From assembly GCA_013298125.1 (NCBI GenBank), contig JAAFJP010000030.1:1-64000 (forward strand): a stretch of 64,000 nucleotides of DNA. The letters are read 5' to 3'. Of this stretch, positions 8,488 through 64,000 are shown piece after piece. A program made the translations under genes and the position numbers. This stretch comes from Cytophagales bacterium. Its GTDB lineage: Bacteria; Bacteroidota; Bacteroidia; Cytophagales; Spirosomataceae. The notes under the pieces are model-generated. The model was not told the origin of the DNA. It worked only from the letters and a program-made list of their open reading frames with translations, and searched no databases. Position 1 is the stretch's first letter. Each line of letters opens with the position of its first letter.

Positions 8488-8578
8488 CCTCACCCCCAGC
8501 CCCTCTCCCGTGGAGAGGGGAGTTTTCTCGGATGAATAAACTACTCCCCTCTCCACGGGAGAGGGGCTGGTGGTGAGG
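8488..8578. repeat. C/G-rich palindromic repeat, family A, copy 1
   Basis: The arms begin CCTCACCCCCAGCCCCTCTC and end with its complement GGTGAGG. One arm base differs (GGTGGTGAGG). Each arm also folds on itself (CCCCTCTCC-CGT-GGAGAGGGG), so the whole can form one long hairpin or two short ones. It fills nearly the whole gap between the DUF3089 gene and manC. Related copies lie at 12873 and 44945. Confidence 0.9.
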
Positions 8579-12872: not shown

Positions 12873-12971
12873 GCATAACCTCACCCCCGACCCCTCTCCT
12901 ACTAAGAGGGGAGATATTAGTCCGAGACTGCTCCCCTCTCAGTAGGAGAGGGGTCGGGGGTGAGGTTATGC
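12873..12971. repeat. C/G-rich palindromic repeat, family A, copy 2
   Basis: GCATAACCTCACCCCCGACC opens the left arm and the right arm ends GGTTATGC. The arms share the CCTCACCCCC-GCCCCTCTCC core with the copies at 8488 and 44945 but carry unrelated loops and short flanking extensions. It sits between the TonB receptor terminator and the PIG-L gene and overlaps the upstream alternative start of that gene. Confidence 0.9.
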
Positions 12972-13929: not shown

Positions 13930-14090
13930 CAGGGCTGTTAAGTTCTGAAAATCAAGTCAGAATTCAGAACAAGGAATGTAGAATTTAGAAGGAATAATAG
14001 AATGAAAATCGGATAAGTTATATTTTTTACTTCTCCATTCTTAATTCCTTGTTATAAATTCTGCATTTTTTAGAGAACTTAACAGCCCTG
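13930..14090. repeat. MITE-like 161-bp element, copy 1
   Basis: The termini CAGGGCTGTTAAGTTCT and GAGAACTTAACAGCCCTG are inverted repeats; the interior is itself partly palindromic (ACAAGGAATGTAGAATTTA against TAATTCCTTGTTATAAATTC). A second copy at 14135 differs at only a few positions. Confidence 0.85.
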
Positions 14091-14134
14091 CCTTCAAAGG
14101 GGGATTCACCATTAGTGTAAGTCCCCCTTTGAAG

Positions 14135-14296
14135 CAGGGCTGTTAAGTTCTGAAAATCAAGTCAGAATTCAGAACAAGGAATGTAGAATTTAGAAGGAAT
14201 AATAGAATGAAAAATCGGATAAGTTATATTTTTTACTTCTCCATTCTCAATTCCTTGTTATAAATTCTGCATTTTTTAGAGAACTTAACAGCCCTG
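14135..14296. repeat. MITE-like 162-bp element, copy 2
   Basis: This is the same unit as 13930-14090 in the same orientation, with one added A and one T-to-C change seen by eye in the interior. High identity implies recent duplication or conversion. Confidence 0.85.
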
Positions 14297-32560: not shown

Positions 32561-34882
<2,322 letters not shown>

Positions 34883-44944: not shown

Positions 44945-45034
44945 AACCTCACCCCCAGCCCCTCTCCCGTTGAGAGGGGAGTTTTTGAGGTCGAATTCTC
45001 CCCTCTCAACGGGAGAGGGGCTGGGGGTGAGGTT
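44945..45034. repeat. C/G-rich palindromic repeat, family A, copy 3
   Basis: AACCTCACCCCCAGCCCCTC begins the left arm; the right arm ends in its complement GGGGTGAGGTT. Each arm also folds on itself (CCCCTCTCCCGTTGAGAGGGG is nearly palindromic). It directly follows the stop codon of the GT2 gene and fills the gap before the polysaccharide deacetylase. Confidence 0.9.
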
Positions 45035-62868: not shown

Positions 62869-64000
62869 ATGAAAAAAATAGTTATCTTAGGCGGAGGCGA
62901 AAGTGGTGTTGGGGCAGCATTATTGGCAAAAGCAAAAGGCTTTGAGGTTTTCCTTTCAGACAAAGGTTTATTATCCGATAAATCCAAAGAAACTTTATCT
63001 CAAAACAATATTCCTTTTGAAGAAGGCGAACATACAGAAGCCAAAATTTTGGATGCCACCGAAGTCATCAAAAGCCCAGGAATTCCTGATAAAGTGGTGC
63101 TAATCAAGAAATTACATTCGCTAAGAATTCCCGTAATTTCAGAGATTGAATTTGCTTCACGCTATACGAAAGCGAAGATTGTTGCCATCACGGGAAGCAA
63201 TGGAAAGACCACTACAACGCTTTTGACCTATCATATTCTCAAAAGTGCAGGATTAAACGTAGGACTTGCGGGTAATGTAGGCGAGAGTTTTGCCAAGCAA
63301 GTAATTGAAGATACTTTTGATTATTTTGTCTTGGAACTCAGTAGTTTTCAATTAGATAATTGCTTCGATTTCAAGGCTGATGTGGCGATTTTATTGAACA
63401 TCACCCCCGACCATTTGGATAGATACGACTACGTTTTTCAGCATTATATCGAATCAAAATTTAGGATTTTGCATCACATGACCGCCGCCGATGACTTCAT
63501 TTATTACCAAGAAAGTGAAGCTCTGATGGGTGAATTATTAAAACGTACTGATTTGACTGTCAAGCGTTTGCCTGTTTCTTTAATAGCCCCCCAGCCCCCA
63601 GAGGGGGAGTTAAAATCAGGCTTGAATACCCCCCCTCTGGGGGCTGGGGGGCTACTACAAAACGATATTTTACACATCCAATATCAACAACAATCTTTCG
63701 ATTTTCCCGTTTCAGAATTACCCATAAAAGGCTCGCACAATGCCATCAATGCGATGTGTGCAATCTTGGCTTCTCAATCTTTAGGACTTGATAATGAGCA
63801 GATTACGGCTGGCTTAAAATCATTCCAAAGTGTTGAACATCGTCTTGAACCTTGCGGAGAAATCAAAGGCGTAAAATACATCAACGACTCAAAAGCAACT
63901 AACGTGGATTCAGTTTTTTATGCCTTAGGAAGTTACAACGAACCCATCATCCTCATCATGGGAGGCGTGGATAAAGGCAACGATTACCGCCAAATTGAGC
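62869..64000 (+). CDS. murD: UDP-N-acetylmuramoylalanine--D-glutamate ligase (3' end cut by window)
   Basis: From the ATG at 62869 (MKKIVILGGGESGVGAALLA) the protein shows the Mur ligase order: Rossmann-like N-terminal domain, P-loop AITGSNGKTTTTLLTYHIL, SSFQLDNCFDFKADVAILLNITPDHLDRY, and SHNAINAMCAILASQSLG, VEHRLEPCGEIKGVKYINDSKATN. It adds D-Glu to UDP-MurNAc-L-Ala in peptidoglycan synthesis. A C/G-rich palindrome (63584-63654) lies in frame and adds about 23 residues with Pro/Gly (APQPPEGELK... GAGG) in a variable loop of the central domain near residues 239-262. No frameshift or stop results. The rest reads normally to the window edge. Confidence 0.95.
   Translation, partial: MKKIVILGGGESGVGAALLAKAKGFEVFLSDKGLLSDKSKETLSQNNIPFEEGEHTEAKILDATEVIKSPGIPDKVVLIKKLHSLRIPVISEIEFASRYTKAKIVAITGSNGKTTTTLLTYHILKSAGLNVGLAGNVGESFAKQVIEDTFDYFVLELSSFQLDNCFDFKADVAILLNITPDHLDRYDYVFQHYIESKFRILHHMTAADDFIYYQESEALMGELLKRTDLTVKRLPVSLIAPQPPEGELKSGLNTPPLGAGGLLQNDILHIQYQQQSFDFPVSELPIKGSHNAINAMCAILASQSLGLDNEQITAGLKSFQSVEHRLEPCGEIKGVKYINDSKATNVDSVFYALGSYNEPIILIMGGVDKGNDYRQIE
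63584..63654 (+). repeat. C/G-rich palindrome inserted in frame in murD
   Basis: TAGCCCCCCAGCCCCCAG opens the left arm and CTGGGGGCTGGGGGGCTA closes the right; the arms are about 24 bp and each can also fold on itself (CCCCC-AGA-GGGGG). TA stands on both ends. The overall design (two self-folding arms) is that of the family A repeats at 8488, 12873 and 44945, though the sequence differs. It is translated through in all 71 bases. Confidence 0.9.

Follow-up and report, generated by a model that had tools for sequence, protein, structure and literature searches.

How does a palindromic DNA element come to be read as part of MurD, and what happens to the gene that receives it? The question arises from a stretch of 64,000 nucleotides (the window), in which such an element lies inside murD (Table 1). 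The murD ORF, read from the ATG at 62869, has no stop through the palindrome. Its complete frame comprises 466 codons from stop to stop and extends past the window (L010/L100).

Table 1. Coordinates of murD and of the parts of the palindromic element in the window
Feature	Position	Strand	Remark
murD (UDP-N-acetylmuramoylalanine--D-glutamate ligase)	62869..64000	+	377 codons in window; runs beyond window end
Palindromic element	63584..63654	.	Translated in frame as MurD residues 239-262 (IAPQPPEGELKSGLNTPPLGAGGL)
Left hairpin arm TAGCCCCCCAGCCCCCAGAGGGGG	63584..63607	+	Sequence check and repeat search
Spacer between arms AGTTAAAATCAGGCTTGAATACC	63608..63630	.	Arm-to-arm interval
Right hairpin arm	63631..63654	-	Exact reverse complement of left arm TAGCCCCCCAGCCCCCAGAGGGGG

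A direct sequence check gave a palindrome of 71 bp, consisting of two exactly complementary 24-bp arms and a 23-nt spacer. Codon 239 of murD is ATA (63583-63585) and codon 262 is CTA (63652-63654). The palindrome and the open frame across it, both described in an earlier note on this DNA, were confirmed. A longer version of the palindrome (89% complementary) was also listed by the repeat search of the window. The 16-base arm core, with ≤3 mismatches, was found at two places in the window, both in the murD element, with 0.07 expected; one of 100 shuffled windows had two or more matches. As RNA, the element folded with -62.7 kcal/mol (z -8.4), and none of 200 shuffles was as good.

The window protein matched solved MurD structures. 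In a sequence search its murD was closest to Arcicella (Bacteroidota), from which we infer an Arcicella-type host genome. No second murD was seen in this genome; the next-best MurD match was far weaker (E = 1.9e-6).

Among 18 aligned murD sequences, the element was present in that of the window alone. All 17 relatives, six from the same genus and 11 from elsewhere in the family, lacked it, in line with the earlier note. The predicted size of the gap was not found: instead of a clean gap of 21-26 residues, all 17 relatives had the same gap of 15 residues, and nine native codons were missing from the window. Codons were printed for six Arcicella genomes; these have nine between the flanking leucine codons, against 24 in the window. 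Hence, the addition of about 23 residues stated in the earlier note comes down to a net gain of 15. Judged by these codons, the element occupies the site of a short variable loop and was not simply added.

An AlphaFold model of MurD (19-sequence alignment; mean pLDDT 86, pTM 0.84) showed strands at 232-237 and 260-264, with the insert between them. Mean pLDDT was 52 for residues 241-250 and 58 for residues 251-260, with values <50 at 248-255. The insert is probably a disordered loop between two strands, and the model thus agrees with the loop location that had been proposed.

The murD element is one of many. With 201 bp around it as the DNA query, 60 matches were found in the genome (G000; 5.85 Mb, 72 contigs, listed completeness 95.5% and contamination 1%). 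The arm pattern with three mismatches allowed gave 106 matches in the whole genome, 40 of them without any mismatch, and the reversed-pattern control gave none. Copies were parsed from the 100 of the 106 matches that were listed; these formed 44 inverted pairs and 12 single arms, i.e. 56 copies. The consensus of this family (family 1) is two inverted hairpin arms of ~27 bp, AGCCCCCYN(N)CCCCCAGAGGGGGARTT, around a variable spacer. The spacer was 11-125 nt long (<60 nt in most pairs) and the element usually 57-110 bp. The spacer of the murD element starts like those of several other in-frame copies (GTTAAAATC..).

The distribution between genomes was patchy. In 58 further genomes (reversed controls: 0-2 matches), the arm pattern was found 51 times in G004 of the same genus, 91 times in G013, 62 times in G055, 57 times in G035, 22 times in G014 and 14 times in G017, with 0-5 matches in the remainder. 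Six other Arcicella genomes had 1-5 arm matches each. At one mismatch, 32 matches were left in G035, 17 in G013 and only one in G055, meaning that the copies of the latter have diverged. A class-wide scan with ≤1 mismatch found family-1 arms in four of 294 genomes besides G000, with 1-5 each. Family-1 arms are accordingly rare outside the neighbourhood of Arcicella.

Other repeats were seen in the same DNA. A second, related palindrome family (CTCACCCCCRRCCCCTCTCC arms) occurred in the window at 8488-8578, 12873-12971 and 44945-45034 and at many other places in the genome. Its pattern was too lax for counts (222 matches, 178 in the reversed control), and only the first 30 loci were used, all without mismatch. 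At 13958-14269 lies a pair of almost identical inverted repeats (~106 bp each, 205 bp apart). Several palindromes clustered at 34720-34881 have GCTTCTCCGAAGC or its complement in common and are possibly a further repeat family.

We checked the position of the family-1 copies relative to ORFs. A copy was counted as in frame if it preserved the reading frame of an ORF of ≥150 codons and was situated ≥30 codons within it. This applied to 40 of the 56 copies (32 of 44 pairs and eight of 12 single arms); three were near ORF ends and 13 were outside. The expectation that the 24-bp arm would recur in other ORFs was therefore borne out. An earlier, weaker parser had given 37 copies in frame, five near ends and 12 outside, of 54. 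Random placement of those 54 sequences in the window, with small random deletions, left 17.5% in frame, and the binomial p for the older count of 37 was 2e-16. Selection against broken genes alone would raise the in-frame share. The excess is therefore a sign of tolerance and purging, not of a preference for genes.

The in-frame share differed between genomes and families. For the copies stored by the searches, which are a sample, it was 13 of 15 in G013 (another genus) and two of 14 in G035; the second palindrome family of the same genome, as an internal comparison, had four of 19. Of the parsed copies in G004, eight of 21 were in frame.

The host genes are mostly conserved ones: Pfam domains were found in 28 of the 30 host ORFs scanned (of 40 listed). 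The Pfam-matched hosts included leucyl-, valyl- and phenylalanyl-tRNA synthetase (leuS, valS, pheT), UvrA, D-Ala ligase, a penicillin-binding protein, apolipoprotein N-acyltransferase, methylmalonyl-CoA mutase and a FAN1-type VRR_NUC protein. Together with murD, argC is also on the list of in-frame hosts. One host, an ORF of 233 codons with no Pfam match, may be spurious. The earlier note had considered in-frame palindromes well known from Rickettsia and unfamiliar for peptidoglycan genes of Bacteroidota. Translated palindromes are in print beyond Rickettsia as well (PMC3733652, in its available part), and here the phenomenon spans the whole genome and is not peculiar to peptidoglycan genes.

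The loss of native residues seen in murD was found across the host genes. Of 23 host windows prepared, 17 were searched in eight genomes of the genus (G000 included), with two to seven relatives per site and just two or three at some. Relatives had native residues where the element stands in all 17 searched windows, in murD and at a third leuS site. Native residues (three or more) were missing at 18 of 18 plainly comparable sites, and a clean insertion was seen at none of the 19 compared sites. The native stretch comprised three residues in LutB, four in methylmalonyl-CoA mutase, 7-8 in D-Ala ligase and at leuS site C, and 10-13 in argC, pheT, valS and UvrA. The longest stretches reached 20 residues for a kinase and, for one of the leuS relatives, 23.

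The 19th site, rhaD, is of a different type: two single arms flank ~35 clearly native residues. Not every pair arrived as one unit. The idea that two arms were generally inserted independently, with the native loop between them as the spacer, holds for rhaD only and was rejected as a rule. In the 17 genes other than rhaD, a permutation test found spacers no closer to their own native loop than to the loops of different genes (p = 0.80); including rhaD (18 genes), p was 0.04. The murD spacer, likewise, scored no higher against the native murD loop than against the loops of other genes. Because the spacers resemble their own loop no more than others, the native loop is gone at the sites other than rhaD. 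Spacer length and loop length were weakly correlated (rho 0.43, p 0.09).

Some sites were occupied in more than one genome. The element was at the same protein position in G000 and G013 in valS, where five other Arcicella sequences printed were without it, in G000 and G035 in apbE, and in G000 and G004 in the gene of locus L098. Evidently, permissive loops have been hit more than once.

The case that comes closest to a directly observed event is leuS. The genome has two leuS copies with ~88% identity in DNA (L080 on C2 and L113 on C3) and different palindrome sets, so that the insertion contrast is available between paralogues of this distance, not between near-identical genomes. Site A carries the element in one of the two copies. 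The loop of the other copy is that of G003 except for one residue. To the right of the element, the two copies do not differ over the 59 nt that adjoin its edge, and 14 codons of the other copy are gone from the element-bearing one. At site B, a Tyr-(K/Q)GE-(Y/H) loop is kept in five Arcicella genomes. One G000 copy has TAT-element-TAT instead, with a family-1 element between the two tyrosine codons. In the other (L080), the site is occupied by a half element belonging to the second palindrome family; across the repeat, its sequence is the same as in the A. aurantiaca-type genome G007 (L145). At site C, the element is common to both copies, with one difference within it, and lies in a near-identical tract, which suggests gene conversion between the copies around this site. 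As far as sequence comparison goes, the leuS pairs point to replacement.

In sister species, the site A loop had other repeat-like or longer sequence (L145, L155 and L161), for example a run of ACCCCTAACCCCCAACCCC or, in G002, a loop of 23 residues. Native loops may themselves be former repeats.

Target duplication was checked at 37 pairs. No direct repeat of at least 3 nt flanked any of them (0.6 expected from shuffles). Flanking matches of 2 nt were found at 11 of the 37, and TA stood on both sides in 11 of 37. A TA target duplication, as had been suggested, did not hold up: TA does occur on both sides of these pairs, yet no longer direct repeat accompanies it. AGCC was preceded by T in 45 of 91 arms, by A in 38 and by C in five. 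Y1_Tnp was the sole transposase type searched; its five matches in the genome had no family-1 arm in the fetched loci (~3.2 kb). At one locus (L102:1385-2169), an ORF of a Y1-type transposase lies among three perfect palindromes of 58-60 bp (AAACCCCTCGTTA...), which is a REPtron-like arrangement of another palindrome family.

The explanation that we consider probable is as follows. The murD insert would be one copy of a small non-autonomous mobile palindrome that multiplied in an Arcicella-type genome. Each arrival would be a deletion-insertion, in which the element replaces roughly 9-60 nt of the target at once and leaves no target duplication. Such an event would fit a repair-type or template-switch process better than a classical transposase. 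Copies that break the frame or the protein core would be lost. Survivors would be those in which a loop or linker at the surface was exchanged for a Pro/Gly/Ser/Asp-rich peptide in a tolerated frame, and they would lie mainly inside genes because most of a bacterial genome is coding. In MurD, 24 codons of probably disordered peptide would have taken the place of a nine-codon loop of the central domain, and the cell would make a longer enzyme, presumably active. Counted against this explanation are the low in-frame share in G035, the lack of family-1 arms near the Y1_Tnp matches, the two single arms of rhaD, the length differences that the replaced loops show among relatives in any case, and the sites where only 3-4 native residues are missing.

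The latter sites bear on the strongest alternative, namely a clean insertion into a loop, followed by gradual trimming of native residues as the new peptide comes to serve as the loop. Bacterial genomes tend to shed dispensable DNA, and host loops naturally vary in length among relatives. At some sites, trimming would have had to remove only 3-4 residues. We nevertheless regard it as unlikely. Many arms look young (the 40 of 106 without mismatch), yet native residues are gone at all 18 plain sites. This argument is not proof, because concerted correction between copies could keep the arms uniform. Moreover, trimming would need to halt at the element edge on both sides, and the right flank at leuS site A runs unchanged for its 59 nt to exactly that edge. 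Replacement on arrival remains the preferred reading.

The arms were not read in all frames alike. Counted in 34 host ORFs, first arms were distributed 23/4/3 over the three frames (n=30; the main frame reads ..PRGG) and second arms 22/8/3 (n=33; the main frame reads PPLGxGG). Stops may explain part of this bias. On average, 3.4 of six frames were open in in-frame copies (n=23) and 1.8 of six in other copies (n=11). Spacer G+C was 37% in in-frame copies and 23% in the others. A GACTC/CGAAAG-like spacer motif, picked after inspection and with small numbers, was found in 12 of 23 in-frame copies and in one of 11 elsewhere. These spacer differences would fit a gene-dwelling sublineage.

The frame bias, the strength of the RNA fold (-62.7 kcal/mol, z -8.4) and the D/S/E/K-rich spacer theme of many in-frame copies could also be taken to mean that the palindrome is kept for a function, either as a strong mRNA hairpin by which translation or transcript stability is adjusted, or as a peptide useful to the proteins. 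The hosts are unrelated, however, the positions along the genes differ, and the element is absent from the same genes of close relatives and patchy between genomes. A retained function is very improbable on this evidence. Even less can be said for an assembly artefact or contamination that scattered the repeat through contigs. The draft does have 72 contigs, with two diverged leuS copies on different ones, but the frame is kept across the element at dozens of separate loci, G004 and G013 show the same habit, partly at the same sites, and the completeness and contamination listed for the genome speak against it; we give this next to no weight. A conserved native segment of MurD that is palindromic by chance is refuted, as near to certainty as we would go, by the 17 aligned relatives (all of the same family), which lack both residues and palindrome, and by the occurrence of the same arms in dozens of unrelated genes.

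If the mobile palindrome with replacement on arrival is accepted, translated palindromes would be more than selfish passengers: they would also be a mutational process by which loops of essential proteins are exchanged time and again, both in Bacteroidota and in intracellular Rickettsiales. Dozens of conserved enzymes in this genome are natural loop-swap variants, for which the unmodified orthologues of sister species can serve as controls. With no target duplication and no adjacent transposase, the mode of repeat movement becomes a testable question. A wider claim is possible, and we put it forward tentatively, as something we would sooner doubt than assert: that these elements form a class of mobile palindromes living chiefly in protein-coding DNA and spreading by exchange for short target stretches, with no target duplication. 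It would thereby rewrite surface loops of dozens of housekeeping enzymes and would include a gene-dwelling sublineage with spacers that are hydrophilic and open in several frames.

Three known systems are comparable. Like intragenic REP dimers, which have hairpin units of 20-40 bp, often as inverted dimers and some of them coding for 20-30 residues (PMC3733652, available part), family 1 has a high-copy hairpin unit, often in inverted pairs (arms of ~27 bp, 106 matches, 44 pairs among the 100 listed). As far as the same part of that paper goes, REPs lie inside genes of several bacteria, over half of them as dimers or groups encoding 20-30 residues; hosts include uvrA and tRNA synthetases, and CGTC repeats occur in Bacteroidetes among other phyla. 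The tags of the known types did not fit. GTAG was at the start of just 12 of 91 parsed arms, and CGTC was found in one of 91 (outer end only), so that assignment to either type by tag was rejected. Unlike GTAG-type REPs, which are predominantly between genes, family 1 is mostly in frame in ORFs (40 of 56 copies). No RAYT next to family-1 arms was found in the fetched loci of the five Y1_Tnp matches.

MITEs such as the Correia/NEMIS elements of Neisseria are also short non-autonomous palindromes with terminal inverted repeats and no coding transposase. Correia/NEMIS have an open-frame size class inside genes and a stop-rich class between genes (PMC2229807, as excerpted), and in-frame family-1 copies similarly have more open frames (3.4 against 1.8 of six). 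Unlike MITEs, family 1 shows no target duplication and loses target nucleotides. No parent insertion sequence was identified in the search, which was for Y1_Tnp only.

The literature search gave no paper joining 'Arcicella' and 'palindromic'. Translated palindromes in Bacteroidota were found in none of the titles and abstract openings searched, with most subscription papers outside the search. New relative to this literature, in the portions of the texts at hand, are a mainly intragenic family in Bacteroidota, the loss of the native loop at every compared site and the frame bias.

Closest, together with the intragenic REP dimers, are the Rickettsia palindromic elements (RPE) and the protein-coding palindromes of Wolbachia. 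In the accessible sections of PMC2229807 and PMC10969869, RPE are fused in frame to conserved genes, and a guanylate kinase with such an element is translated and active with changed substrate affinity (PMC2229807). There, as here, the small palindromes occur both between genes and, in frame, in a large number of unrelated conserved genes; read from the sequence, the frame is open through the repeat in unrelated Pfam-matched genes. Family 1 differs in its host group (Bacteroidota, not Rickettsiales), in its arms with C/G runs and in its size, with the 71-bp murD copy and a usual 57-110 bp compared with 105-146 bp for RPE in the consulted part of PMC2229807. It also replaces native loop residues, a loss that the consulted parts of these texts do not mention for RPE. 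Translated palindromes as such are a known kind of element.
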